64,000 nucleotides of DNA. Source: Sclerodactyla briareus. Its lineage: Eukaryota; Echinodermata; Holothuroidea; Dendrochirotida; Sclerodactylidae. Below the pieces are notes generated by a model. The model was not told the DNA's origin. It ran no database searches and saw only the letters and a list, made by a program, of their open reading frames with translations. The stretch covers positions 62,001 through 126,000 of the forward strand of contig JAODTK010000334.1 of assembly GCA_026419785.1 (NCBI GenBank). Direction: 5' to 3'. Each line of letters begins with the position of its first letter. Position 1 is the stretch's first letter. Positions 5,501-51,552 of this stretch are shown in pieces. A program made the translations under genes and the position numbers.

Positions 5501-8500
5501 ATACCAAGAAGCCTTTTCCTGGTTACAATTGTGTCAACAGTCACAGGGGTCACTGACAGTTGATGTTGCACGAAGACAGTCCAGAACAATGTTTCAAAAC
5601 TCCCTGACGTAAATTACATATTCTATCTGCCAAAGAATTTTACAAATGTTCCTCCATGATTAACAATAACAACAAAGTATAACATGGGAAATATTAGTTC
5701 AGTTCTTGAAAAGGAGTGACAGTTGAAAATAGGCTGTGATGATAGAACTATGTGGAAAATCTCATCTAACCCCCCCCCTTCCCCCCTTAATATGTGGAAA
5801 TATGTGATGTTCGTTTGACATGACGAGGTCTGCATAAACTAGTAGGTTGTGTATAGTGTGTAGTCTAGTGAATAATAGAAACCACCGATCGTGCAACCAG
5901 GCAAGATACTTTTTGTGGTTCTCCTAATTGCTAATTGCAGAGGAACTTTCAATCAAGTAGCCAGCATTAACTGGATGACTTTCAAGCAGGTCAAATAACA
6001 GCTGTTTATCAGCATTGATGATATTTGATGAACAAACTCCCAAAAGTACTTGACAGAAGTTTCAACAGAATCATCACAAACTCCAAATGTTCTGAAAAAT
6101 GGAGTAGAAGTCACTTGACCATTTGAACAAAATGGCCCATATTGAGCATTGGTCAATGATAATATTGACCAAAAATTCATGATCATCTGATTTATTCTGT
6201 GATAGTAGAAGCTGCTTGACTGTATATACCATTGAACACTAATGATACTGACTTTTCATGCACATTTGATTTCAACTCTAGGAGCAGAAGCCACTTGACC
6301 ATTTGAACAAAATGGCCAAAACTGACCCTGAGATGACACATGCTGGGGTGACCAACCTTTCTTTTTTCTTATCCAGTTTCCTCAGCATGACGTCACATAT
6401 ATCTGACCGGCAGCAGTCTTCAAGGATATTGTGGAAGTCACTGAGATCCTGAAAAAATAGTGAAAGGCCCAATGTTAAAACCCTGAAGATTCTATTTTCT
6501 GGAGAAATGAGGAGTGAAATGAAAAGTAAATATTTCTCATGCTTGGTTCAGATTGGTTAAATATGCAAGGGAGCGAGCATTACCAACCAGAAAGCCAAAA
6601 GGCTTAGTAATTCCTTGACTATTTTTGACAACCTATAGCCAGACACAAGGACAAATGGGAGATTGTACCAGCTCATTATGGGCAACATAACGTCTGAGAA
6701 ATTTCCCATTTTTCCAACCCAACCAATAGGGCCTCCTATACTCTTGACAAGAAAGCTACACACTGAAATTAAAGATTTTCAGACTTTGACCTCTGGTAAC
6801 CTAAGATGACCTTTGACCTGACCCCAAAACAATAGGGCTCATGTACTCATCATGAGGAACTCACATACCGACTATGAACTTCATCCATCCAGGTGGGGTC
6901 AAGTAATCATTTTCACAAGCTGGGCATCACACATACACACACATGACTGCATAGATCCTCTGACTTCGTCGAGGAATAAAAAAGACATGGTTCTGCGACC
7001 CAAGTTGTAACCTCTTGATTTCAGCTTTATTTTCTTTGGATGCGGGCTGGCACTCTGCCTCTCTCTTTTTTCTCTCTATGGGATACCTGCTGAACAAAGG
7101 ATTGAATCAATGCAAAGTACAACATGGGTTGGGAAACTGAATACTACACTTAAAGCGGAAGAATCCCTAGGATATCAGTAACACTTTGCAAGCAAACATT
7201 CCGGTTTGAATTCCAGCGATCACCAGACATTTTACCTAGTGGCTGTACTTGGACAGTTGCGAGATGTTGCAGGGTCTTGTCTTCTCTTGATGGTTCAGCT
7301 GTAATGCAGTGGACTTTCTGGAGTTATTGGGGTTTGACATGGGATATTTGGAAGTCCTCTCGGTCGATGTGACTATGAATCTTTGGCTCTTCCAAGTTCT
7401 GAGAAAGTGGTCGGATCCTGGAGTTCACTGATCATCCTCTTGGAAGCAGGTTGGTCCTGGAAATAGTTACACCCCTGCCTCAGTATCATCTGAACCCCAG
7501 CCAAGGAGAGAAGGCTATTATCGCCAGTGCTCTCACTACGATCATACAGGATCCTCGGTGACCCTTACTTGGCTCCCTGAACCCATAGAAATCAAATCAA
7601 ATGTTAGCTGCAAATCCTTCAGGTACTTGTAAAAGATCATGGCCTTTTGACAAAACCTTCATTGTGAAGGAGAGGGGGGGGGTAATCATATGTCGATGCA
7701 ACCATGTCAGTTGCCTACCACTTGTTTTATCCTGCTCCGGATTCTCATGGCCAGCAAGAAGGCATTTTTTTTCAAAATCTTTGGTGTGACTGACCTGCAC
7801 AGCGAGGCAACTCTCACAATGGCAGAAGGTCCCAGTTCTAGGTGTTTATGGTATTGACCTTACTAGCCGTTCAAACACCACCCCACACAGCTGCAATCAG
7901 CCGTCCCCCAACACTTGATCATACAGTTGCTATGAGTTTTTTTGGCAGGCATAATGTATCAGTCTTTTCAATCTCTCACAAATTGAAGAATACCACACAG
8001 GTTCCAAATTGCTTCTGTTCCTTTTTTGTTCTTCTCTGTCAGGCGAGGAAAATATGGTAGTTGTTCTGAGCATGGTACGGACAAATTTTAATCTTCCCTG
8101 CCGAATCAGACTTCCATACAGATTCTGACATTACAGGTATGATGGGGTGGCCAGATTGCAAATGGTAGGAATTACCAGAATGGGACTGATAGGCTAGACA
8201 GAGGCACTGTGCTAGTATATTATGAGCAGAGGAGCAAAGTTGACCTCAAAATTCTCAACTACACAGTAGTTCCAAATTTGAGCATACTCACTTTACCGTT
8301 GATGGCACTATTTAATTTTGTTAGTGGTCCTCTTGATTGATCAGGCAATTTGGAGAGAATCTTGGCCCTGACCTGCAATAGAGAATAGAGAAATATTGAC
8401 TTTATAGGACTAAATGAAAAGTATTTTTAGAATTAGGAAAAAACCCAACCTATTAGTTTCCACCAATGGCATTCCTTCCAGCTAATCAGTATCAACAGTC

Positions 8501-11968: not shown

Positions 11969-14900
11969 TTCGAGTGGGAAGCAGTACAAACCGCTCCACC
12001 ATCAAGAGGATTCACAGGAACTTCCACACAACTAGTGAAATATGCATACATTCTGAATATCAAAATGCATTCATAACTCTCACCATGCAGCAAGTTGGGA
12101 GCCACCTTGTTCAGTTGGACATCATATATAGCACTCACGTCGTTAATAATAGGGAGAGCAATATAAACTTTGTAACAAAAATTACCTAAAAAAATCTTCT
12201 GCCAGCTCTGTATGTAGCTCTTCTGGCAATCCTGGCAGCTTTGACCGGAGTATCTCCTCAATCTGTCGCAGGGTGAAACTCGCAGCTCTGAGCTCTTGCT
12301 GCTGCTCCGGCCGCCTCCTGAGAGGAATCAACAGAACTGAAATTAGGTGGTGCTCGGTGTGAACCCATACCAACTATATTGCCATGAAGTTGTGAGTTCG
12401 GGAACCCACCATGAAAAAATTGAATGCAGGCTTTGCTCTGGAATCTATTGTTGCCTAACTGCATACCTGAAGGCTCGTTGTCCATGTCTACATCAGCGTC
12501 TCGGTTGCGACCCTTCTTGACCTTCTTCCTTTTGACCTCTCGCTTGTACCTCCTCCTCCTGATCTGGAACTTCCACCTCCACCTATAAAGATTTAACAAA
12601 AATAAAAATTCTCCACAAAAGTGTGGCTGGGTATGCACAGAGGTAAAGTGTTGGTGCTTGATATGGGGAGGCATTGTTGTCTGGTAGCAGCTAGCGATAA
12701 GGCAACAGCAGGCAACATCTGTCAAATGTCACAATGAGAAAACATCTCGATGCAATCCTATATAGAATACAGCATATTGTCACTATGAGGTCAATAAAAT
12801 GTCACAATGCAATTCCATATAGATTCCAATATTACTTGCGTCCACTATAAGTCTATGGAAATCATTCCTTGTGATAGTTTTTTTTTTTTTTCTGTTATGT
12901 GTACAAACGATACTACATTTTAATGCTAGTGTTAAATTCCATGAGAGTCTTATAATGGGGAGGAGAGTAAACTGAATACATTGTAGGACCCCATGTCTTT
13001 ATACAACATTCTGTTACACAGGTATTGTACTCTTCCAAGTTGTGAGTTGAGGATCTCAGCATGCATCGTGCACAATATAAGAAAGAAACTAATAATGCCA
13101 AAAGTAAGATAAGGTACTAAACACCCTAATAATTTTCTATGTATTCAACTGTTCCTAATGTTTGAAAACCTCTACATTACTAATGCTCATTTTTTCTCTC
13201 CGAAGGAATAAACATGTTAATCAATCATAGTGGACCTCACTCAGAATGGACTGATTCTCAGGGAGGAATAAACAGTCAAATTTGTTGGAGAAAAGAGAAC
13301 TTACTGGGTTGTTACTACTTTCTGTTGTGGAAGTCATATCGGGCAATTTTCCCAAAAACCCTTACCTGGTTTTCGTGTCTACGAGTTCCGAGGTTCCGTC
13401 TCATACTTACTAATCCCCTCTATTCAGGCTATAGTCACATTCTGGCGAATTCTTCCACTTCCAATCTGGCCACTCCCATCATCCTCTCTGTCGCCAGATC
13501 TGTAGAGCGCATTCTGAATTTTGCAGGCGCGGTTTCCTGAAGTGGGGATGAAGGGAGGGTGACCAGTATGAGACGGAACTCGTAGACGCGTAGACCCGAA
13601 AACCAGGTAATTGTTTTTGGGAGTCTAACTTCTTTCCATCATTCCATCTTCATACTTACCAATGCCCCAGTCTTGACACAGCCGTCTGGCGCAGGCCCTT
13701 GACCGCTGTGGGTTTAGCACATTCGGCGAAAAGTCTCCGTGTGGAGTGCGTGTTTTGCGTAGATGGCAGAACCCTGATGGCGTTATCTCCCAGCCGCTGT
13801 CTTCATTCTGGCCACTAGAGGACACCTCGAAACAAGCTGTGGAGGTGCCACTCCTCTGATTGTTGTGAAGCTCGGGCTTTTCGTGAATCCCGAAGGAGCA
13901 TGGTTATCCTAATTCTTAGCCTGGGGCCAGCCTGGCCTTCACGGACCGGGGCAGAGCACCTGGGTGATATTAACCATTGTTCAGAAGTTCCGACAGTCTA
14001 GATTTGACCTATGAACCTTTACTCTCGTCACATTCACCATGCTGCGGTCCTCGAGGACCGTGGATATCGTCCCAATAACTGTTAAGAAAATTTCGTCCGG
14101 GCAATGGTTCGTAGCTGTCTTTAGCCCGGAAGATGGATCGGTAACAATCGGACCTATCATTGTCAACGGTGGTCTGGTTTATTAAAGGGCATGTAGGCAC
14201 CTTCAATGAGCATAAGCGTACTGTCACCAGGTACGTGTCCTTCTCTTCTCATGAGGCTCCGAGGCAGCCTCAATGATGAATTCGGATGGCGCCTCCGCCA
14301 ATGCTGCTAATATCTGTGGTTAGGGACCATGATGGGCAAGCGTGGAAGATTCCGCGTCACAAGCGTGTGATGATTTGGCTGTCAAAACCCTTGTGCACGC
14401 TGAACAGAGCCTGACCGGATAGTTTTAAATAGCCACCTTCGTCTTATGGAAAAACATAATGAAAAAAGAAGTAACTTGACCTATGGTCGTTTCCCAAGAT
14501 TGCAAGCTTTGCAGCTGCCCATTGTCTTACGTTTTGACAACTGTGGCATCGTAAGTGGCGATGGTTGAACGTCGCCAGGCTCGTTGTGCATATTTCGCTG
14601 CCTCGTGTCAACCCTTTCTGTCGCAGAGGTGAACTTGAATTCCATGCAGTGAGGCTGTCGCACACATCGTCGGCTTGCCGTGGCACGACAGCATTCGTGG
14701 GGGAAGACCCCATTGGGTTGACCACCATGAGGTTTCATTAGCAGGCGGAAACCAAGGCTGGTTTGGCCAAAAGCAGCTATGAGGGTCATCTGCCGTCCCG
14801 TACTGGCGTTAGTCCCGGATGTTGAAATAATCCGTTGATCCGGCTATTGGCGGGAAGGCCGTAACCGTACCCCCATCCCAGATTACGCGACGGCGTCCGT

Positions 14901-17900
14901 CCTCCCGGCTTTCTGACTGAAGTTGCGAGTGTACTAAACCTTGGAGTCTGTTGTTGAGTTCGACGCCAACCAGTCTAACGAGTCGCATACCGCCAGTAGA
15001 TCCCCTGATTTAGGTCATCGCGGAGACCGGGATCCTCCTTCCCGGTTGACATGTCATCGTCGTCGTTTTGTCTGTTCTGGCCAACACTGACTTGATGAGG
15101 AGCATCACCATCTTTCCTGCGCCCTCGAGGTGGTCCGTTGTCAAGGTTACCCTGGTATGTTGACCTTTAATGGGCCCACCCCTTGTCAAATTACATTTCT
15201 GTGTCAACCATCATGGAACGGTTCGAAGGCGACACCAGTGGCGACGATCGACGATAAGTTGTCTAACATGGGCAGTCGTATCTCGCGCAAGAGCTTGGCA
15301 TCTTGTGTAATCTGCATCTGCCCAGAAGGGAAACTAGATGAGAGTATGGCTTGTGTATAGAGCAACTCACTGGTGTGAAATGTGGATTCTCTACTAAGAA
15401 AAACGGCCCTCACAGAGGTCGGAATTTGCACCCGATATCGTTTGCACTGATTTGGGGTTAGAGTCGACTTTTCTCTCTGTTGAACACCCGACCCTAGACT
15501 CATGTAACAGTTGGATGTGTGCGAGAGTGTCTGCTTGGACTGCCTGTATCGACAGTGCCATTATCTCCAGTCTCCAGTAGGCCTATACTCTGACCCCTTG
15601 AAGACAGCAGGAGGTGGTCAGGCCAGGTACTCTGATGAAACATTCAGTAGTGGCAGAAGGCCGTAGGGCAGCGCCCTAAACTTGCAGTCAAGTCCGTCAA
15701 GGATTCCATGCTGATTGATCTGCCTGACAAGATCTGTTGAACGGATTTAGATTCGTAATGCCTCCATGCACCTCCTTTCTTGGAGTCAGGAATAACCGAG
15801 ACTGGAACTTTTGGAGGCAGTTTCTAAAGGCGCGCGTGGTTTTACGGCTGCCCTTTTCTGGAGAGTGCTGCCAGTTCCTCTTCGCAAGACAAGTGGTTTT
15901 TTATCGTTGTCTCTTGGTACGGGCATTACTCCGCCTGTACTACTCCAAGTACCCCAGCTCCTGGGTTGCTGTCTACCAGTTTTGGCGCATATAGCGATCT
16001 GTCCACCCCCCAGTGATGGGTGAACCCGTAGGGTGGTTCTCCTGACTGGCGGATTTGCAAGCCAAATCCGACCTACATTGGCAGGTCCCACGAGGGCTTT
16101 AATCAACCAGTAAAGGAGCCTGTGGCTTAAAGTCAGGTTGTCGGGGCGTTCGACCGAAAACCACGTCCTTCCTGGGTGACCCCCGACATTACCCCAGTCA
16201 TGTCTCACGAACATCCGGATTAGGTTCCGCAGCCGCGACAATATCGCGCTTCATCACCTGGGTATTGCAACAGAGCCCAACCAGTAAATAACTTTCATGG
16301 ATTTGACACTTCCACAGACCCCGGCTGGCAGTTGTTCCAGGCTTTGTTAGTTGAAGCATTTCCATGGCTCCAGGGCTGCCATTGGAGTATTCTGATCTCC
16401 GTCCGGAAGGTTTTTTTTTTGATTTTTTTTTGTAATGCTTCCTGGCTCGCCGCCTGCATATTCCCTCCCCGGGGCCTGCCGCGGAGCTTTCCATAGTTTG
16501 TTTGCTCGCGAAACAAAATCCCTGCCCCAGGTCTTCCAGACTCATGCCCGTCGGCCATCACGCGAGTCGGTTTTATGGAAAAAAAAAAAAAAACCAATCA
16601 CACTTCCCCAATGTGGTTACAGAAACCACCAGAAGTTGGGAGAAGTCGGCGGTAAGAACCTAAAGGTTCCGCGAACTTCCCTAAATTATCCAGTAATTTC
16701 CACCGGAAAATTGCTACACACGCAATAAAACAAATGTATGGAAAGAATCCCTGCCCCAGGTCTCAGGTCATCCAGACTCTTATGCCGTGCCGCCCTTACG
16801 CTAGTCGTTTTTATGGAAAAAAAAAAACCTATCACACTTCCCCAATGTGGTTACAGAAACCACCAGAAGTTGGGGAGAAATTGGCGGTAAGAACCCAAAG
16901 GTTCCGCGAACTTCCCTAAATCATCCAATAATTTTCCACCGGAAAATTGCTACACACGCAATAAAACAAATGTATGGAAAAAAAAAAATTGCTCCTATAC
17001 TGGAATAATGGACGGAAAATGTCCATGAATTTCCCGGACAAAGAAAGGCACTGTTCATAGGACAATGCAAAAATACATCGGTATACACGAGTAACCTAAA
17101 TATAGGGTACGGTACCAGCTCAATGGCTAGAACAAACGAACCGGGTGGTACGGACGCCTAGGGACCACGGAAACCCCGGGAACCCAGCGAGGGTAAGAAA
17201 TAACAGGGTCGGGAACTCCGGACATCCCCGGAAGAGTCCCTAGAGTCTCCAAGTTATCCCACAGAAAAGGAAATCAATTGGCCATACAACCTGGAATTTT
17301 TCTCAGCCAAAAAAGATGAAAAAGGGCAGGAAAACAACATCTAGACCAAATTCAATCCTAGTACGGGACCTAAACGATCAAGGTCGTAATCGGTCCCAAG
17401 GCCGGTTCTGACGAACCTAGAATATTCCCCAAAAACACATGTCCGCTACGATATATAGCCTACAAGTAAAGAGGGAAAAGGCTGTTAAAAGCAAACAACC
17501 CACTCGTAACCTAAGTACACAACACCAACCAAGGCTAGTGCAAAAGTACGAAACGACTGCCACAACAGACCAGGCTACTACAGCCGAACAACAACCGGCC
17601 TAAATCATAACACTAGGAGTTTCGTATATGACATCGTGTTAGGGCTCTTGGCTAACACGAATTGCGTCACAGGCAAGCCAAAATACAAGGATAATTTTCA
17701 CTATTGAAAAAGAAAATAATACCAATCCTCCCATGAGAATAAGATCTTGACTTGATAATTCTTCGGACCTTCGTGGTTTCGGAAGCCTGTAGAGCACATT
17801 ATGGTGCTAAACTCCAGGTTTTAAACTTTGCCAAAATGCGACTGTATCAGATGATTCTGGCCGATAGAGAGGCGTTGAGTGCCAGATTGGAGTGGTAGAT

Positions 17901-29900: not shown

Positions 29901-32900
29901 GTGAACAACACAGGTATAGGTGTAGTTCTCTCAGATTGGGTTTTGCGCATAGGTCTCTATTCAAGATAATTTGCATGTTCAATCATTATGACAGATGGTG
30001 GATGCCTTAGACCAATTCCACAGTTATAGGTCCTTGGCAGTATACTGTAAACTAGGGGACCTTTGCTCAACAAATTGATAAGCTAGTCACATCTATTTAG
30101 GTCAGAAATGTTAGAAAATTCAATGATGTAAAGAACAAAGCATCGCCGTACCCGTATGTTTATTAGTAGAAACCATCTCAAAGTTGAGTTAGGTAAGTTA
30201 CCAAGACAGCACCAGCGGACAAGTGCTCCTCCCCCCCCCCCCCCCCCTCCCTCCCCTGTAATGTAGTAACTAAGATGGGATGTGAGCCCTCAGTCTCCTG
30301 GACTTCCTGTCGCGGGAACATAACCCCCCTCCTCCCTCTCCCCAAATGGAAAATGTTAGGCCCCCTGTCAAGAAATCTGGGCAATGTAAGTTACCAAAAT
30401 CATACTGTATTTGAGTTGATGCAGAGAAGAAATTGGAAGGTGAAAATTTCATATGATATCCAAAACATAACAGGCTCTTCCCTTGTGCAGGCAAAGTATA
30501 TGTTCTGGACATTTCTTATCTCACACCCAAAAAGTTTTCACTACTTCATATACGTTGAATATGTGAAATAGATTTGTAAATACGGTTTGAGTGAAACACT
30601 TCAACATTAATTGCCAGTCAGCTTCTGTTCTGTCAAAATTCACAAAAACTTCTGTGTGGTCGCTAATATGAACAAAACCTATTTACCATAATAAAGGTTA
30701 CAGGTACTTACTGTAAAAGACCTTCTCTGGGAACTTATACTTGTTTAGGATTGTCTGCACTGTGTTGGTCTGCAAAATGATAAGTTGAGTCGAGAGCTTG
30801 AAACCTATATTCAACATGTTTCTTTCAATGATTTAATGCTACTTCAGAAATGAAGCATCAGTTGTTACAAGTTGGTTTTAAGTTTCGGAATTATGATAGT
30901 TCAAACAAACACAACTACACCGATAGTATTCGTCTGCATCCATCATGTCTAATATTCTAACCCTCACTTTGAAGAAATTGTACTGACTTATTGGTCTCTA
31001 TGACCATGGGGGGGCTTCTAAATTTTCGTTCTATCAGGGACATTTTGTGATCAAGGGGAAATGCTTGAAGGAACCCCCGACAGTACCTGGCGACGGAACA
31101 CCAAGAGGGGTCGCCCTCTACCTTTGAATTTTAAAAAATATGAGAAGACGGCTAGATGCAAAATGGAAGTCGTATTCAGGCACCAAGAGGGGTCCCCCTC
31201 TTTTGAACTCTCAGAAGGTGGCTAGATGCAAAATTGGGCGAGAGCATTATTCACCACACAAAATGAAATCCCCTATCACTGTACCTCGTAATGGCACTGA
31301 AGACACCACCGGACTTTGGCTGGTCCTCTCTATAAAGGCCTGTGTGAAGATGACGTCTCTGTTGTAAGGGTCGATCTGTCCCTCGATGATCCCACCGATT
31401 CTGCCCTGGATAGCCTTGGAAAAGTTGTGTGAGGGAATGAATAGGCTATGATGTAACCTAACCTATCTAAATAATGCGTGTATGTGTCTGGCATCATTGA
31501 GGTTAAAACATTCACAAGAAGTCAAAAAGAAAACTGAAAGTCAAAGCATTGCAGTTCTAAGCATGAAATAAGTGAAATCTTTGACGCTCATACGATAAAA
31601 AAGATGTTTCGATGTGGGAGGTAGAAACAATCATCAATCAGAGTAGCAGTCTGTGTATAGCAAAGTAGATATGAAGGAATAGAAATTGATAACCTCTTAA
31701 TATTAACTCCTTGAGTCTACCCCATTACTGCATGGTATGGCTTAGTTGATATAACTCTGTAATATACCTGAGTCTACCCCATTACTGAGTGGTATGGCTC
31801 TGTTGATATAACTCTGTAATATACCTTGAGTCTACCCCATTACTGAGTGGTATGGCTCTGTTGATATAACTCTGTAATATACCTTGAGTCTCCCCATTAC
31901 TGAGTGGTATGGCTCTGTTGATATAACTCTGTAATATACCTTGAGTCTACCCCATTACTGAGTGGTATGGCTCTGTTGATATAACTCTGTAATATACATT
32001 GAGTCTACCCCATTACTGAGTGGTATAGTTCAGTTGATATAACTCTGTAATATACCTTGAGTCTCCCCATACTGAGTGGTATGGCTCAGTTGATATAACT
32101 CTGTAATATACCTTGAGTCTACCCCATTACTGAGTGGTATGGCTCAGTTGATATACCTCTGTAATATACCTTGAGTCTACCCCATTACTGAGCGGTATGG
32201 CTCAGTTGATATACCTCTGTAATATACATTGAGTCTACCCCATTACTGAGTGGTATGGCTCTGTTGATATAACTCTGTAATATACCTTGAGTCTACCCCA
32301 TTACTGAGTGTATAGTTCAGTTGATATAACTCTGTAATATACTTGAGTCTACCCCATTACTGAGTGGTATGGCTCTGTTGATATAACTCTGTAATATACC
32401 TCGAGTCTACCCCATTACTGAGTGGTATGGCTCAGTTGATATACCTCTGTAATATACCTTGAGTCTACCCCATTACTGAGTGGTATGGCTCAGTTGATAT
32501 ACCTCTGTAATATACCTTGAGTCTACCCCATTACTGAGTGGTATGGCTCAGTTGATATAACTCTGTAATATACCTGAGTCTACCCATTATGAGTGGTATA
32601 GTTCAGTTGATATAACTCTGTAATATACCTTGAGTCTACCCCATTACTGAGTGGTATGGCTCAGTTGATTATAACTCTGATCATATACCTGAGTCTACCC
32701 CATTACTGAGTGGTATGGCTCAGTTGATATACCTCTGTAATATACCTGAGTCTACCCCATTACTGAGTGGTTATGGCTCAGTTGATATAACTCTGTAATA
32801 TACCTTGAGTCTACCCAATTACTGAGTGGTATGGCTCAGTTGATATAACTCTGTAATATACTTGAGTCTACCCCATTACTGCATGGTATGGCTTAGTTGA

Positions 32901-34501
32901 TATACCTCTGTAATATACCTTGAGTCTACCCCATTACTGAGTGGTATGGCTCAGTTGATATAACTCTGTAATATACCTTGAGTCTACCCCATTACTGAGT
33001 GGTATGGCTCAGTTGATTACCTCTGTAACTATACCTCCAGTCTACCCCATTACTGAGTGGTATGGCTCAGTTGATATACCTCTGTAATATACCTTGAGTC
33101 TACCCCATTACTGAGTGGTATGGCTCTGTTGATATAACTCTGTAATATACTTGAGTCTACCCCCCATTATTGAGTGGTATGGGCTCGGGACAGTGTCGGC
33201 TCGCTTACCACCCGTGAGATCAGGTCCAAATCAAATTGGTGGCCATACCAGATTACTCTACCAAATATCGAATAGTACCTGTTTGCCAGTCTCTGGGCCA
33301 CTCAGCAAGAGGGATTGGAGCAGGGACAAGCGAGGGGTAGGCAATCTGCAAGTTCCATTCGTGCCGATTTTTACCACCCTCCCAAGATAGGTAGTGAGGA
33401 CTACAGGGGAATTGCATCGCCTAAATTCTAAAGGTTGTATATTCCCAAGGTCCAATGTCCTCTCTGCTCAAGGTTGTCATTTTGTTTTTTTCGTGCGGGA
33501 TATAATGTTACAATTCACAAATATAGGGGTCAGAAACCCATTATCATGTCAAGAATGGACTCTCCCTTTGGACTGAGCCACAGCCATTGGACCTGCCAGC
33601 ACACCACACTCATCCATCAGTAAATGGAATGTCGGCATTCTGACTTCTCTAAATACACCCTTGACAATACCATCTGTTGGCCGCCAGGCTGGCGATGCAC
33701 TGCACCATGAACATTGTCCGTAAGTTTCAATTTTACCTGGGTGAGGAAATCGGGCGGGAGTAATAGACAGGGTAGCTCCGGTTATCGACACATGACCCTT
33801 TGACTGAGCTGGTCGTTGACTCCCTCCGCCAGCTGGTCCAAGTATGTGCTAAGCGAGACGGAGATAGGAACAGACGGGAAAAACATGCGACAGGACCGCA
33901 CACAGGTTATAGCCTGGGTTATCACTGGGTTCCTACATGTACCTAAACTGGAATACCCTAGCATGGTGTGAGTCCAATCAGTATCTTGAGTCGATCAGTT
34001 GCTTATAACTGATTTTAGCAGTGCGTGCAGGCACACATGAATGGGGTGTGAACGTGTAGAAAGGCTCATCTAACTGGGTTTCATTTTTCGAAGTATGTTT
34101 TCTCTTTACTAGAAGAATGCCAAATTTTAAGAATCTTCTTAATGCACAGGTTATTTTCAAGAAAGATATTTCACTGATTTTTCTCCTCAGTTTTTGATTT
34201 TGTGAAAAAAAAATTTTCATTAGATATATATCTTTTTGTAATCAAATGAACATAGAATTAGTGTGATCAGTATAGGAAGTCAAGAGCCTCGGGAGTCACA
34301 GGAGTCAACTTAAGTTCATGGTCTCTGTATTTGTCTCTTACCTTAGATATTTGATCCATGACAGCCTTAAAGTTCTTGTTCCTCAAATCATGGTTTTAAA
34401 ATAATCCTAAATGGCCATTGAGGGTTTTTTTTAGGGGTTTGTGGTGAGGCATGAGGGAGCCTGCTTCCGATTCCCTCATAAAATTAGCTGTCACATCCCC
34501 C

Positions 34502-40149: not shown

Positions 40150-41665
40150 ATTAGTTGTCCTGATCATCAAAATGATGATTTAATACTTTTTCGCAATAAC
40201 ATTGACAGTTCATTGGATGCATATGCTTCTAGGATGATGCCTCACAGAGTGTAAACCATTTTCATAAAAAAAACCGCCATGTCATTGAAGGTCCTTAAAG
40301 GTCCTTCGGGGTCAAAAACTGATTTTATACTTTTTTCGGCAATATCACTGGGTGTGGTTTTCATCATAAGCAAAATGCCTCCTAGAGTGGATGTAGCCAC
40401 ATGGAGAGTACACTTCTATAAAACTGTTCATATCATTAAGGTCATTCGGGGTCCACTTATGGGTCAAAACCTGTTTTGGGCTATAATCGGAGATTGAATA
40501 TCTGCGAAGGCTGGATGGTTCACTCTTGGGATATAATTGTGACCTCCCATGTGTGTGACCTCTGACCTGAATTTGACCTCTGTCGGGTGGTCAATGTGGT
40601 TAAAGGTCGAATCTTGATAAATGTGCTTATTTAGGAGTTACGGCAAAAAAAGAGTAGAAACTGGTTATTTTGGATATGTGATAGAGCTTTTGTGTGCTTT
40701 ATGGAGGGCACAACTCCCGCTTTTCCATCGGACACTTACTTTGGGTAGTTACAAGGGGTCAAAGTTCATTTTTTCACCTTTTTCGAATAACATTTGGACA
40801 ATTGGGTTTTCATTGGCAAGCATATGCTTTCTAGAGTGGATGGCATCACATGGAGTGTAACAATTTTCATACAAACCGCCATGTCTTGAAGGTCATTAAA
40901 GGTCACTTAGGGTCAAAAACTGATTTTATTACTTTTTTCGGCAATAGCACGGGTGTGTTCATCAGAATGCAAAATGCCCTAGGAGTGGATGTATCACATG
41001 GAGAGTAACAAACCTCATAAAAACTGTCATACAGAAGGTCATTCGGGGTCACTAACTCAGGGGTCAAAAACTGGTTTTTGTAAGTCGGAAAGGAATATCT
41101 GCGAAGGCTGGATGGTTCACCATTGGATATAATTGTTGAACCTGCATGTGTGTGACCCTCTGACCTGAATTTGACCCTGTCGGGTGGTCCTGTGGGTGAA
41201 GGTCGAATTTGAATAAAGGTGCTTATTTAAGGAGTACGGGGCAAAAACAATAGCAACTGGTTAATTTTGGATATGTGATTGAGCTTGTGTGATTATGGAG
41301 AGAAAACAACTCCCGCTTCTATCGAACACTACTTCTGTTTATTACAAGGGGTCAAAAGTCATTTTATACCTTTTTCGCAATAACTTGGACATGTTCATCA
41401 GAATCAAAAATGCTCCTAGGGTTGATGTATCACATGGAGAGTAACAAACCTCATAAAAACTGTCATATCATTAACGGTAATTCGAGGTCACTTAGGGGTC
41501 AACAACGTTTTCTTGGCTATACTCGGAGCATTGAATATCTTCGAAGGCTGATGGTTTCACCATTGTGATAAAGGTTGACCTGCCATGTGTGGTGACCTCT
41601 GCTTAATTTGACCTCTGTCGGGTGGCCCTGGGTTAAGGTCGAATCTTGAATAATGTGCTTATTTA
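40150..41665 (+). repeat. Tandem repeat, unit ~560-590 bp, about 2.5 copies
   Basis: Each unit has ACCGCCATGTC or AAAACTGTCAT, GGTCAAAAACTGATTTTAT, TTTTTCGGCAAT, AGAGTGGATGTA, TCACATGGAGAGTA, TATCTGCGAAGGCTGGATGG, TGACCTGAATTTGACC, GTCGGGTGGTC, GTGCTTATTTA and CAACTCCCGCTT. Copies begin near 40,270 and 40,860, with a third, partial one near 41,400. They differ by many single-base indels. Confidence 0.85.
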
Positions 41666-41974
41666 GGGACGCAATTTGTCCGGGGCTGTAGGGGGTCCTC
41701 ATCATTAGCACGTGCCTTATGGTAATGCCCCATTTACATCTACGTTGTCGCTTCACAAGTCTATAAATGTCTTCTTTCCACGAATATTGCCGGTTTCATG
41801 TTCACCAAATTTCTGGAATAAGAGATGCTGGGATATATACGTCTGGCGGTTTACCCGCCCGACACTTTCTAGTTTTTGGCTGATCCGCTTTGTCCAAATA
41901 TCAATTCAAAGGTAACCACCCCCCAGTATTAACAGAATAATATTGATGCATTTACCGGGAATATGGAGCACTGA

Positions 41975-42165: not shown

Positions 42166-42499
42166 ACAACTTGTGCAAGCACACCCAAATCTTAAATCCG
42201 TGAAAAAATCTGGTCCTTATGTGAAGAGCCCAAAACGGACTCATTTGGCATTCTCCCCTAAAATCAATAGCAAATTCAAATTTGACTTCTTGCAAAGGCT
42301 AATATTCCGTGCCGCAGTTTAGGTCAGGCGTGTTTTACCTGTGAGGAAGATTCCTCATCGACCCCACCGTGTCCGGGCAGGTGTATCCTGCTATTCCTGA
42401 CATTAATTGGCCTCTGAAAACAGTGTTAGGGATTAGCACTTTTCTCAACACTATTTTGAACCACCTTTAAAACGCGGTTATATGGCAAGCCGTTTACTT

Positions 42500-43230
42500 T
42501 TTTTTTGATCGGCATTTAGAGATATCTACAATATTTTGAAGATATCTTCAAATAAATGTGAATCTCATAGGGCAGATATCATCAAATCAATTGAAGATAT
42601 CTTAATTATTGAGACATCTCCAAATATTTACTGATCTCCGAATTATTGAAGATATCAACTAAAAAATTGAAGTTATCTTTAAATAATTAGAGTTATCAAC
42701 AATTCATTTGAGGATATCTTCAATATTTTTGAAGATATAATAATGATTCACAGATATCTTCAAACGATTGTAATATCCACAATATTTGAGATATCTGCAA
42801 ATGTTTGTCAGATATCAACAATTAAATAGTGATATCAGCAAATGTTCAAGATATCCGCCTAAAAATCATTTGAAGATATCGACAATCTATTGGTTGATAT
42901 CTACAATTGAATTGTGGATGTCATTAATGATATCTGCAACTTAAATCTTGATATCTACAATTCTAAATTTAGATATCTACAATTCCATTTGTAGCTATCG
43001 TCATAATCAATATAGATATCATCTATTGAATAGTTGATAATTTCAAATAAATGAGTTTGAAGATATCTTCATTCATTGCAATATGCTACAATTCATTGCA
43101 ATATCTTTCAAACTGAAATAAAAAGCCAAAACGGCGCGCTCTGATGCTCTCCTGGTTCTATTTGTAGATATCTTCAATGCATTTGAAGATATCATCAAAT
43201 GAATTGAAGATATTTGCAATAGTGTAGATA
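42500..43230. repeat. GATATC palindrome array, left arm
   Basis: More than a dozen GATATC hexamers or one-base variants, joined by spacers such as TTCAAATAATTGAA that are themselves near-palindromes. Spacing between hexamers is often 20-21 bp. A terminus-like AATAAAAAGCCAAAACGGCG lies near 43,115, and GATTAAAACTAAAACTGCG follows at 43,240. Confidence 0.9.
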
Positions 43231-43235
43231 TCTCC

Positions 43236-44640
43236 AAATGCTGATTAAAACTAAAACTGCGCTTGTGCTGTTTCGTCCACGTTGGTTACACCACGCGCCA
43301 GTGCAACTGTGTATACTCAGTTCACGTGAACGGTATTACCGTCATTGCTACTGTGCACACCTCGTACTAGACCTCGGCACATCCTCGTTATATCGTCATA
43401 TCGCCATTATCGCGATTGCATATATTGGCGGCTGGATAATGTAGTTGGCCGCAAACATGGCGGTATACACAGGTGCAGCTGTTCTCACATCGCATTTTAC
43501 GGGTTTTCAGTCACGGTTTGAAGCATCGTATAGGCAAAACGCTGCAACCTTGACGAAGTTAAGCTGAGTCCCAACAAACGCCCAAAAAATGTTACAAGAA
43601 TTTCTAATTCAATTAGAGAGGAACAATACAACGATCTCGTTCCTTGTTCTCACGGCTAAATTCCGTCCAACAGAGGCTGACATCAGAGATGAGTAGTAAT
43701 CAGACGGAAGCCACAACGATATTTTGAATTCCATTTTTCTCCTGTTTTTCATTTCCGATTACCATTAGAGCTTCTAGTACTCTACCAGCCTAGCAGGACA
43801 GCGTGAAACTAGGCAAAACAAGCTTGTCGTTCGTTGTTGATTGGTTCAGCTGGGCTCCGTGGTCTAAGCTTGCGAGATTGACAGACTTCTTTCCTTTTCC
43901 GTTATTATGGCGCGGATCGCCTAGGTCCGAAATGGAGTTTGGTGTACGGTCGAGTGACTGGTCAGAAACTCCAGCTATTTATTTCATTGATCCGTCGGAA
44001 GCGCAAGGCCGGGAATGCCAGACTTTCATGTCGCGGTGCATAGAGAATGTGAAGAAAGTACAATCCAATGTTATAATTTCCCCTAATAATTTTATTCATA
44101 GGCGTTTGAGAATACTTAATGAGAAGAATACCAGTGAATTCTTTCACCATTTGACTGTTTTACAACTGATATGAATGTTCTCAAGTTTCATCATGTGGAC
44201 GATCTCGGATGATGTGGGTCCTACCAAGGATTTACCTTACAATGGGCCCTGCCCGGGTACGGTACGGTACGGAGTACGGTACAGTAGCGCGCGCACGTAC
44301 GGTACGTAGCCTACGTATGTGTGCTAACACGAATAGCTCGATGGCATGAGCCCGGGCCACGGTGCTATATTACACACGCGGGCCAGGCGTACCGTATTGT
44401 AAATTATTTTTCTTCCATGAGGTTGTGGGCCTGAAGAACCAATTGTTGATATCCCTATGTCATTCGATAATCTAAGATTCTTTTTAGGGCCAATTTAAAC
44501 GCTTTAATTGCAGCCGAATATAACGGTAATCTTCTGGTAGATAACAATGGAAGATAATTTCTTCCCAAAAATTTAACACATTATTATTTAACGGAGTCCC
44601 TAACCAGGAAGGCTTCCCACAATACCCAGGCATGCGCGGT
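43236..44640. other. CpG-richer core between the GATATC arms
   Basis: This segment lacks GATATC words and is richer in CpG. It has a start-like AAACATGGCGG at 43,453-43,463, a plus-strand open frame at 43,803-44,174 (123 codons; MEFGVRSSDWSETPAIYF is its clearest part) and a cluster of GGTACGGTACGG-type palindromes at 44,255-44,320. I recognise no protein. It could be element cargo or the 5' end of a neighbouring gene. Confidence 0.35.
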
Positions 44641-44649
44641 CGCAAGCCC

Positions 44650-45640
44650 TATTTGGTGATATCTTCAAATAATTGTTGATATCACAAATGCTATAGGGTG
44701 AAACGCCTGCCAGTATTGTTTGTAGATATCCACAATTATTTGCAGATATCTACATTTGAATTTGCTGATATTCCCAATTATTTGAAGATATCCTCAATTG
44801 ATTGGCTGATATCATCAAATATTTGGAGAGTCCACAACTTGTGGAGATATCTTCAAATATTGAGATATCCCGCAAATCATTTGAAGTATCTCTACTTTTT
44901 GAAGAGTATCTCCAAATGCCTGACTAAAAACAAAACGTCTGCGAATTTTTTGATATCAACAATTCAATTATGCATTGTAGATATCTACAAACAAATTTGA
45001 AGATATTCCAATTAAATAGTAGATTTCAAAAATGTTAATTAATTGATCTCAATAATTCAACATATCCGGTTCTCATTGTAGAATATCATGTCGAATTGCG
45101 ATATCACCAAAGAATTGTAATGTCTGTATAGATTTGTAGATATCCACGATTAAAATTGTAGATATCAACAAAGGAACGCACGTATTTGTATCTAACAATT
45201 TTCAAATGTAATATCAGCAAATGGGATTGCGGATATCCTCATTCCTCTGTGGATATCTCCAAATATTTGAAGATATCAATATTGATTTAGTGATATCTTC
45301 AAATAATTGTAGATATCATCCAATAATTACTGAGATCTTCAATTATTCGAAGATATCTGTAAATCAATTATGAATCTCAATATTTTGAGATATCCACAGA
45401 GGACTTGAGGATATCCACCAATATCCATGGCTGATTTACATTTGAATTGTAGATATCAATACGTGCTTTACTTTGTTGATATCTACAATTTACTTTCAAC
45501 AAATGAATTAAGGATACTTCAAGAAATTGAAGATATTTTCAATCATTGGGGATATCTTCAATGATTTGCAGAGAACTTCAAATGTTTGAAGATATCTGCA
45601 AATAATTGTGGATATCTCCAACTACCGAATAAAAAGTAAA
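44650..45640. repeat. GATATC palindrome array, right arm
   Basis: About thirty GATATC or near variants, such as TTGTAGATATCAACAA and TTGAAGATATCTTCAA, in an AT-rich background. A terminus-like GACTAAAAACAAAACG is at 44,924 and ATAAAAAGTAAAACGGCTTA ends the arm at 45,648. Confidence 0.9.
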
Positions 45641-45791
45641 ACGGCTTACCATACTGGTTATCTCTATACGTTTAACAATTAAAGCACAACATGTTTTATA
45701 AAGTTGACATCATATTTAGCATATAACCGCATTTTACAAGATGTTGAAAGTAGTGTTTAAAAGTGTTAATTTCATAACTCTGTTTTAGAGT

Positions 45792-46619
45792 CATGGAATC
45801 ACTCTTGTTGGCGTAACCAAATCCGCGAAGTACCAAAAAACTTTGATGGAGCCCTGCGACTGCCCACTGCTATAGAATTGCTGCCCTGAACACCCCTTCC
45901 TGTATTATTTTTGAAAGACCCTAACCCCTGATGAATTTTGCATCCATATCCCTGGATTTTGTGGCCATTTCCCCATCTTCCAAACGTTTGTCTTAACAGA
46001 GGGATCAGAAGCGACATGATAATGTTTTTCATGTATTCTGGCTATCTTTGCACCCGTCATAATCTATTCCCCTTAGCCATGACTCAGCCACCTGAGAGCA
46101 TGCCATGCCCTTCAAACTAGGAAAGGCCAGAGTTCATTCAAACAACTGTCAAAACCTTATTTTGTGGAAAGCTGTATCGAACGTCGAAATTATTTACCCT
46201 CATCTGTTTGTGAAGGGCACCCCTTTTTAAATAGCTCAAGTCTAAATTGGACAAGCATTTGACTAATCATGCATGCTTCTACAATTACAGGCAGCGGCGT
46301 CGTGCCCATTAGGGCCCGGGTCACCCCCCCCCCCCCCAATTTTGTCAGAGGTGTCATAAAAATGTTGTCATAATTCACATTGAAAAGGTATTCTCGAAAT
46401 CGAAAAGTAGACTATATAGTCAATGTTCTTTGAAGATCGTTGCGGATTAACCCCATACACCTCAGCTTAAAAATATATCAAGATTAGTAATGCCATTGCC
46501 TTCGAATATGTTCGTGGTCCTGAGCTTCAGCGCTTGAGACTTGGTATTAAAGTATTACATGACGAAACAAATATCCAACAACATAAATGATCTCGAATAT
46601 GAACCGATATGTCTTAGGT
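45792..46619. other. Unassigned
   Basis: No gene is recognised. A C run lies near 46,324-46,338. Confidence 0.4.
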
Positions 46620-46775
46620 AGAATTTAGCCTGCTAACACAATAACTCGATCCACTTGGATGGATGGGCTCATACTTGGTATGTTATTTCCCCATGATGAG
46701 TACATGATTCCTTCTGAGTCAAGTCATCTGAGGTCGAAAGAGGTCAAGTCTGAAAATTCCTTAACACGATCAGGC
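46620..46775 (-). repeat. Dispersed repeat family C, inverted copy
   Basis: Reverse-complemented it reads TTTTCAGACTTGACCTC, AGATGACTTGACTCAG, AATCATGTACTCATCATGGG and CATACCAAGTATGAGCCC, as in the other copies. Confidence 0.65.
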
Positions 46776-47311: not shown

Positions 47312-47764
47312 ATGACCTCAATTCGTAAGGAACTTTCCTGCTTTCCTATTCATGCCCGGCTTGAATACAAAATCCTTATTCTTGTTTCTCGGGCTCTAAA
47401 ATGTGGCACACCGGCCTATCCTACGAGATGTCCTCGATCGTCACGCCAGTACGAGGCCTCTCGGTCGTCACAACAAACCCAGAGAGCCTCTTCAGCTCCC
47501 CGTCTCGGGAATGGAGACTTTCGGCGGCCGTAGCTTCCAGTACTCCGCGCTTCGTCTGTGGAACGCCATTCCAGGGGACCTCAGATCTATGAACTCTCTG
47601 GATGCCTTCACACGCGGACTTAAAAACTCATCTGTTTCCTGTAATTATTGATTCGCCTGTATATCTATGGGATTTTTTTGTGTATTTTTCTTCACCCGTA
47701 AAGCGCTATGAGCAGCTTTAGGCTGGATTCTGTGCTATATAAGATTATCTATTATATTATTATG

Positions 47765-50775: not shown

Positions 50776-50904
50776 CCAGCAGTACTGTGGCTAGTGGAAT
50801 ACGCCTAACAAATTCGACAGTTGAACGAGCAAATCGACACCAAAAAAAAAAGAAACAAAGGTTACAAAATACTGCCCAGATAATTCTCCGAACTCAGTTT
50901 TTAA

Positions 50905-51290
50905 TATTCATGATTCAATTTCTGATATCGATAATTCAATTGTTTCTATTTGTGATTTCAGCATTCATTTGTGATATCCACAATTCACTGTTTGATATCT
51001 AGAATTCAAATTTTCAGATTCAAAATGTTTTTGTGATATCCGAAAGGAATTGTTGATATCCCAATTAGAATGTTTAATATAAAAAAAAAATTATTTCGTG
51101 ATATCAGAGAATATTCATTCTTGATATCCGAAAGTTATTTCAGATATCTGAATTAGAATTTTCGCGATATTTTCTTAATGCATTTTGGATATCCAATTTT
51201 TATTATTGATATCCTCAAATCCAGTTCGATTTCAGATATCCAAAATTAACTTGAGATATTCGCAATTCTGGAAAAATGTTCAAACGGCTT
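50905..51290. repeat. GATATC array, third copy
   Basis: GATATC words with AATT-centred spacers, ending in CAAACGGCTTTCCATACG, the same end word as ACGGCTTACCATAC at 45,651. The outer 75-bp inverted repeats of the 42.4-kb element are not seen here, so it is partial or a shorter relative. Confidence 0.8.
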
Positions 51291-51552
51291 TCCATACGCG
51301 TCCGTTGTAGTTGTATGTTCTTCTCTAAAACGAAATAAAATATAAGAAAATATAGATTGATGGTTTCATGACGCTTCTCTCGAAGCATCCGAATATTGGC
51401 TTTCTATTCTCTAATTTTGGGAGCAAGCAGCAAACAATTCCAAAAGCAGTGTTTCCTTGGTTGCTCACATAATCACATTGCTCTCTTTTTCTTCTTTTCA
51501 CTGCTCAGAATGAGGGAAGATTTCAGTTCTTGATTAATAAACCATTTCGCGA

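Follow-up and report, generated by a model that had tools for sequence, protein, structure and literature searches.

Several described transposons carry long terminal inverted repeats (TIRs) with repeats inside them. The fold-back elements Tetris (PMC4079207) and Tm1 (PMC3169594) have composite TIRs with internal tandem repeats, and both also occur in rearranged forms or in forms like those of miniature inverted-repeat transposable elements (MITEs). Rehavkus, an outgroup of the Mutator-like elements (MULEs), combines long TIRs with a minisatellite inside the element (PMC6446971), and in Galileo, a P-superfamily transposon of Drosophila, the THAP domain of the transposase binds sites in the repeats of the long TIRs (PMC3688188). 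Complete IS3EU families are described as always having TA..TA termini and usually 6-bp target-site duplications (TSDs) (PMC10045372), and those of rust fungi as having 6-bp TSDs, TIRs longer than 30 bp and the ends TAYGG..CCRTA (PMC12730594). In this work we have analysed a stretch of 64,000 nucleotides from Sclerodactyla briareus (assembly GCA_026419785.1, contig JAODTK010000334.1, positions 62,001 to 126,000 of the forward strand), here called the window, and in particular an inverted-repeat feature with GATATC-rich arms at its positions 42412 to 45790. A sequence-only reading of the window had described this feature as one large element with a layout that it knew from no named transposon class. 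However, such parallels exist: Tetris, Tm1 and Galileo have been described with fold-back TIRs that are composite and contain repeats, and fold-back-type arms are already known in superfamilies other than the one to which we assign the element below.

Two nested transposons

The feature consists of two nested transposons, a GATATC-rich element (the inner element) having inserted into a pre-existing MITE (the outer element). Their parts, in window coordinates, are the following; L and C numbers stand for loci and contigs.

42412..42480, unstranded: left piece of the outer MITE, with the terminal inverted repeat CTCTGAAAACAGTG..ACGCGGTTA; matches L002-L008
42475..42480, + strand: left copy of the presumed 6-bp TSD, CGGTTA, with one C/T difference from the right copy, in a CpG
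42481..45653, + strand: whole inner element, TATGG...CCATA, 3173 bp, apparently non-coding; eight full-length copies align end to end
42481..42509, + strand: left terminal repeat TATGGCAAGCCGTTTACTTTTT.., which pairs with the right end in inverted orientation; of the two ends, the end pattern given below (40 sites) picks up the right one only
42514..43110, unstranded: left arm, main GATATC block, with units TTGnnGATATCnnCAA
43114..43139, + strand: the terminal motif again (AATAAAAAGCCAAAACGGC), inside the element, at the close of the left main block
43156..43236, unstranded: left arm, second, short GATATC block
43237..43262, + strand: the terminal motif once more, inside the element, where arm and core meet
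43245..44648, + strand: CpG-rich, apparently non-coding core, family-wide (34 candidate loci)
44650..44914, unstranded: right arm, inner GATATC blocks
44914..44939, + strand: internal copy of the terminal motif in the right arm
44948..45624, unstranded: right arm, main GATATC block
45625..45653, - strand: right terminal repeat TATGGTAAGCCGTTTTACTTTTTATTCGG, with 1 mismatch to the end pattern
45655..45660, + strand: right copy of the presumed TSD, TGGTTA, with an extra C (45654) between it and the element end
45655..45790, unstranded: right piece of the outer MITE, including a spacer and the second inverted repeat; aligned after joining to the left piece

The outer ends occur on their own elsewhere in the genome, which comprises 319 Mb in 3171 contigs. 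Beyond the window the outer left end has eight matches at seven loci (L002-L008), and the roughly 3 kb read at each of these contain 0 or 1 GATATC and no array. These loci are short palindromic MITEs, mostly 150-200 bp long, with ends CACTCTAAAAACAG.. When the inner element is omitted, the window's two MITE pieces align with other MITEs across the insertion point. Because the outer ends lie elsewhere without the arms and the MITE is continuous across the insertion, we conclude that the GATATC element inserted into the MITE. In the copies of the inner element fetched from elsewhere the GATATC arms are present and the flanks are other ones. A search with a MITE copy gave 24 matches at 20 candidate loci, among which only the window coincides, by coordinates, with a place where the GATATC family was found; on contig C2954 a MITE and a 65-bp core match lie 57 kb apart.

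The outer inverted repeats of about 75 bp that the sequence-only reading reported are real. The segments 42412-42501 and 45700-45790 give a local alignment score of 41, better than any of 1000 dinucleotide-shuffled pairs (mean 14.1, maximum 25.5), and blastn aligns 42412-42484 with 45790-45720 at 78% over 74 columns. The second, inner inverted pair that it listed, carrying AAGCCGTTTTACTTTTT, is also there, beginning at 42481 and ending at 45653, as are the two GATATC-rich arms, with 21 and 26 exact sites. What did not survive is the union of all these in a single element with double inverted repeats, since the two sets of repeats belong to separate, nested families. The suggestion of a fold-back or TIR family suits the inner element and fails for the outer repeats, which are an independent MITE. 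A genome search with the ends, which had been proposed as a check, found both kinds of end elsewhere; the cores do differ in length, and TSDs were found in some copies only.

TA stands on both sides of four of the seven MITE copies (L003, L005, L007 and L008, by eye), and the window's own copy shows no flanking TA duplication. The outer MITE is therefore probably Tc1/mariner-like, as judged solely from this target site and its CAC.. end; no transposase is linked to it. It shares with Tc1/mariner-like MITEs the TA on both sides, in that part of the copies, the length of 150-200 bp and the palindromic build.

The inner family and its target sites

The inner element is a dispersed family with defined ends and deletion derivatives. 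Its right end has 109 matches in the genome, in 98 candidate places of which 40 were scored, and a 29-bp end pattern, with up to three mismatches allowed, occurs at 40 genome sites and its reversed control at none. For copies of the element 20 regions, each of up to 9.9 kb, were fetched, and TATGG stands at most of the ends read. The core, which had been called unique, occurs at 34 candidate loci, the window included, and is thus a feature of the family; its identity is 78-84% over nearly the full length in L039, L041, L042, L048, L050 and L051. An alignment of eight full-length copies of 3.0-3.4 kb (the window's, L039, L041, L042, L048, L050, L051 and L058) has a mean pairwise identity of 0.65-0.88 per 150-column block; the shorter copies were left out of it, and also L047 and L053, which have other sequence in their cores. 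The core is indeed CpG-richer than the window as a whole, with an observed/expected ratio of 0.93-1.23 in segments of 500 bases against 0.68. One junction within the core, at which about 43819 is joined to about 44242, is common to six copies (L040, L045, L049, L052, L055 and L056), which are about 2.3 kb long (four of the six measured). Shorter forms have 1.6-1.8 kb (L043, L046) or 219 bp (L044), and two short relatives of 426 bp (L059) and 167 bp (L060) have the same ends and GATATC units of somewhat different sequence.

To judge from its reading frames, the core looks non-coding. The longest stop-to-stop frames have 106 codons in the consensus and 126 codons in the core of the window copy, and the latter has no Pfam match at expectation values (E) up to 1; among the reading frames listed for the whole window none exceeds 189 amino acids. 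Searches with Rfam and for transfer RNAs found nothing, and the exact TIR has no match in viral contigs. A captured gene or other cargo in the core, as had been considered, was ruled out by the absence of a Pfam match, by the lack of any consensus frame above 106 codons, and by the core itself, which is common to the family and its deletion derivatives.

Some individual copies deserve mention. In the family copy L057 (2101-8548, contig C440) the core is interrupted by an insert of 4.4 kb, and at 8310 this core also contains the beginning of a further family copy, apparently by nesting within the family. This insert was tried as an autonomous copy and dropped, as it has no frame longer than 125 amino acids from a start codon. 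L048 (3669-6780) and L056 (5160-7484) have similar flanks, GTAGTACGGCC.. on the left and ..CAGTC on the right, which points either to duplication of a segment or to a repeat as the insertion site. In L042 (2071-7802, contig C2809) two family copies follow one another, and their right flanks are almost the same, as a segmental duplication would leave them.

The TSDs were counted in 24 copies with both ends read, 22 from single loci and two from split loci. L049 and L053-L057 were left out, one end being unclear or beyond the fetched piece, as were 10 of 17 short loci at which no facing end pair was seen; three of the seven short-locus pairs that were kept (L068, L079 and L081) have a weak second end. 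With the ends set at TATGG/CCATA, the 24 copies include 4 with an exact 6-bp TSD and 7 with one of at most one mismatch; among 552 mispaired flanks the corresponding numbers are 2 and 23. The exact duplications are CGGCCG (L051), CGGGCG (L052), TGCCCG (L059) and CGGGAG (L071), and the target is GC-rich and CGG[C/G]CG-like. With a length (k) of 7 bp, one copy of the 24 is exact and two match within one mismatch (1 and 6 of the 552 mispaired flanks), and lengths of 8, 9 and 10 bp give none of the 24, either exactly or within one mismatch. The window is not among the seven copies because of the extra base at 45654. We put the missing 6-bp match in the other 17 copies down to age. A 4-bp TSD with the end GTATGG, which was first favoured on 15 copies, was replaced by 6 bp and TATGG after more copies had been added. 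Since the ends agree with TA..TA and with TAYGG..CCRTA and the TSDs with 6 bp, the inner element is most likely, although below certainty, a non-autonomous, fold-back-type IS3EU-like family; long inverted arms of short tandem repeats, the mark of the fold-back class, are what it has.

The palindrome arms and the rival explanations

There are 73 GATATC in the window, 48 of them at 42400-45800 and 11 more clustered at 50924-51240. The unit of the arms is the 16-bp palindrome TTGnnGATATCnnCAA, phased every 20-21 bp: the eight-copy consensus has 67 GATATC, with 50 of the 66 successive spacings being 20 or 21 bp, and the eight full-length copies have 41-67 exact sites each. The consensus arms are mutually inverted (70% over 793 columns) and each is also self-complementary; folded as DNA, the left arm reaches -171 against -69.5 (standard deviation 5) for 30 shuffles. 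Within the element, further copies of the end motif AATGCCGAATAAAAAGTAAAACGGC mark the edges of the GATATC blocks, which gives the arms a modular build. Over the 67 consensus units a TTG and a CAA at a fixed distance are mostly kept, and the positions beside GATATC vary. In 207 gap-free segments around the sites, departures from the consensus are rarer in the GATATC columns (70 of 1242) than in the columns beside them (373 of 4140; p 0.0001). By counts only, G (13 of 207, flanks 40 of 290) and C (14 of 207, flanks 37 of 341) show the same tendency. The lower divergence is suggestive of possible selection on the GATATC site. More weakly, and by analogy with Galileo, the palindromes may be regarded as putative protein-binding sites. 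Selection for hairpins within the units was also considered and was dropped, the positions next to GATATC being without covariation.

The cluster of 11 sites, absent from the sequence-only reading, belongs to a further element:

50904..51296, unstranded: second, diverged GATATC element; on the right it ends with ..AAACGGCTTTCCATA at 51296, and no left end was recognised

This element represents a second subfamily, since it has 21 candidate loci in the genome, the window included; several of the matches end at 51296-51300.

Taken as a whole, we consider it probable, and with good confidence, that a TA-flanked MITE was present here and that a non-autonomous IS3EU-like GATATC element, with palindromes as putative binding sites, then came to lie inside it. 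Several points weigh against this. Seventeen of the 24 copies have no 6-bp TSD even within one mismatch. The end TATGG was chosen over GTATGG with the flanks in view and several TSD lengths were tried; with GTATGG it was the length of 4 bp that stood out, at 0.57 against 0.34 for mispaired flanks (15 copies). In the window, L040, L043 and L050, duplicated words seen by eye lie 1-4 bases off the element end. Transposase coding was not found in any family copy read, nor an autonomous partner in the genome, and the one candidate end, on contig C1764 (L065), runs into DNA that matches only itself in the genome. The five matches to rva_4 (PF24764), which we take to be a family covering IS3EU-type integrase-like transposases, lie on four contigs, none of which has a found TIR site. 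As for the palindromes, the reduced divergence at GATATC falls short of significance when A or T is considered by itself, with p 0.08 for A (22 of 414, flanks 93 of 1151) and p 0.09 for T (21 of 414, flanks 86 of 1116), and no covariation beside GATATC was seen in the window copy (47 sites).

Could the feature be one composite element after all, with MITE ends and GATATC element travelling together as a fold-back transposon with double inverted repeats? Both inverted-repeat pairs are centred on the same point, as this would have it. Nevertheless, we rejected it as very improbable: the outer ends are found elsewhere without arms and the arms in other flanks, none of the 20 candidate MITE loci besides the window lies at a found GATATC place, and the MITE runs intact over the insertion once the flanks are joined. 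Or might the inner family be a fold-back element of a different superfamily with different TSDs, of the MULE/Rehavkus or the P/Galileo kind? Its architecture is like that given for Galileo, Tm1 and Rehavkus in the passages used here; L048 has an exact 7-bp match and L060 one of 6 of 7, and L040 and L043 show a similarity of 8-9 bp with the ends shifted. The P superfamily, with Galileo, has a TSD of 7-8 bp and a THAP transposase, and exact duplications of these lengths occur in 1 (7 bp) and 0 (8 bp) of the 24 copies. A TSD of the Mutator/Rehavkus/Tm1 type, 9 bp (8-11 bp), was not found at the lengths of 8, 9 and 10 bp that were counted, L043 reaching 8 of 9 only with a shifted end. With a clear excess at 6 bp over 24 copies, none at 8-10 bp, and TATGG..CCATA ends that match those published for IS3EU in the parts used here, another superfamily seems unlikely. 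Lastly, the GATATC arrays could be neutral minisatellites, with a palindrome that binds nothing and is there simply because the seed in which slippage began was palindromic. The size of the array differs among copies (41-67 GATATC in the eight), covariation around GATATC is lacking and the signal of constraint is weak; yet TTG and CAA are mostly kept at a fixed distance beside variable positions, the phase of 20-21 bp is kept, and GATATC arrays are retained in the short relatives and in the second subfamily too. We take neutrality of the arrays as a serious possibility, though we lean against it and towards putative binding sites.

The window contains other repeats outside the two nested elements. 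At 31709-33182 there is a 58-bp tandem repeat of about 25.6 copies with 93% matches and a higher-order period of 288 bp, and at 16528-16980 a 236-bp unit in 1.9 copies (90%). Diverged direct repeats, three copies spaced 440-600 bp, occupy 40356-41667. A 58-bp inverted repeat at 13350-13622, 83% complementary and with 157 bp between its halves, is possibly a small MITE, and a dispersed repeat occurs at 343-850, 6622-6880 and 46650-46712, its copies lying about 6 and 40-46 kb apart and the last being inverted. The reading frame at 47400-47648 resembles, by eye, the C-terminal end of a non-long-terminal-repeat reverse transcriptase; Pfam gives no match for it with E up to 1.

Proposed mechanism and comparison with known systems

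The history of the locus may be pictured as follows. A TA-flanked MITE of 150-200 bp would have inserted first, and later a non-autonomous DNA transposon of 3.17 kb would have inserted into it, duplicating 6 bp of GC-rich target. The inner element was probably moved by cut and paste, through an IS3EU-type DDE transposase acting in trans. Its palindromes might serve a dimeric DNA-binding protein, which would most likely be a domain of the transposase itself, as repeated binding sites and would then mark the ends as in Galileo, while slippage and unequal exchange would alter the length of the arms. As a tentative and rather doubtful extension of this, a lineage of the IS3EU kind could have made its ends into long platforms where the palindromic sites, as many as about 67, recur in phase at every second helical turn; a dimeric protein would then line up on the same side of the double helix. 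Such arms would show a transposase of weak specificity where the element ends and would also recruit it or titrate it, which would give copies without a gene the advantage over the autonomous one.

If the IS3EU assignment is true, fold-back structure with repeated internal sites arose in a further superfamily besides P and Mutator, and arrays of binding sites would be a recurrent solution and not a quirk. The phase of 20-21 bp and the fixed unit TTGnnGATATCnnCAA make a prediction that is testable with one purified domain. For elements described as having double inverted repeats, nesting should be checked first.

How does the inner element compare with what has been described? With IS3EU (IS3EU/GingerRoot), as far as the passages used here go, it shares the ends, TATGG..CCATA fitting both TA..TA and the TAYGG..CCRTA of rust fungi, the 6-bp TSDs in part of its copies, and a TIR longer than 30 bp, as stated for the rust-fungus families. 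It differs in that the copies read have no transposase gene and that its arms are long palindrome arrays, which these parts of the IS3EU descriptions do not mention. A palindrome-array IS3EU family was not found in the portions used of the IS3EU/GingerRoot and fold-back literature, a search that lay outside Repbase, the usual place of deposit. Composite TIRs with internal repeats and rearranged or MITE-like forms are shared with Tetris and Tm1; in the passages used, however, the repeats of Tetris have about 220 bp, and Tm1 has repeats of 13-15 bp, 9-bp TSDs and a Phantom/Mutator-like transposase. Rehavkus likewise has long TIRs and an internal minisatellite, but is described there with a 9-bp TSD, a minisatellite placed before the 3' TIR and a PHD-finger transposase. 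Galileo, according to the part of its description used here, shares the fold-back-like, long and internally repetitive TIRs, whereas it belongs to another superfamily, and the unit of the inner element is a 16-bp palindrome in a phase of 20-21 bp whose sites are putative only. By this analogy it is Galileo that the mechanism of the inner element would be most like.

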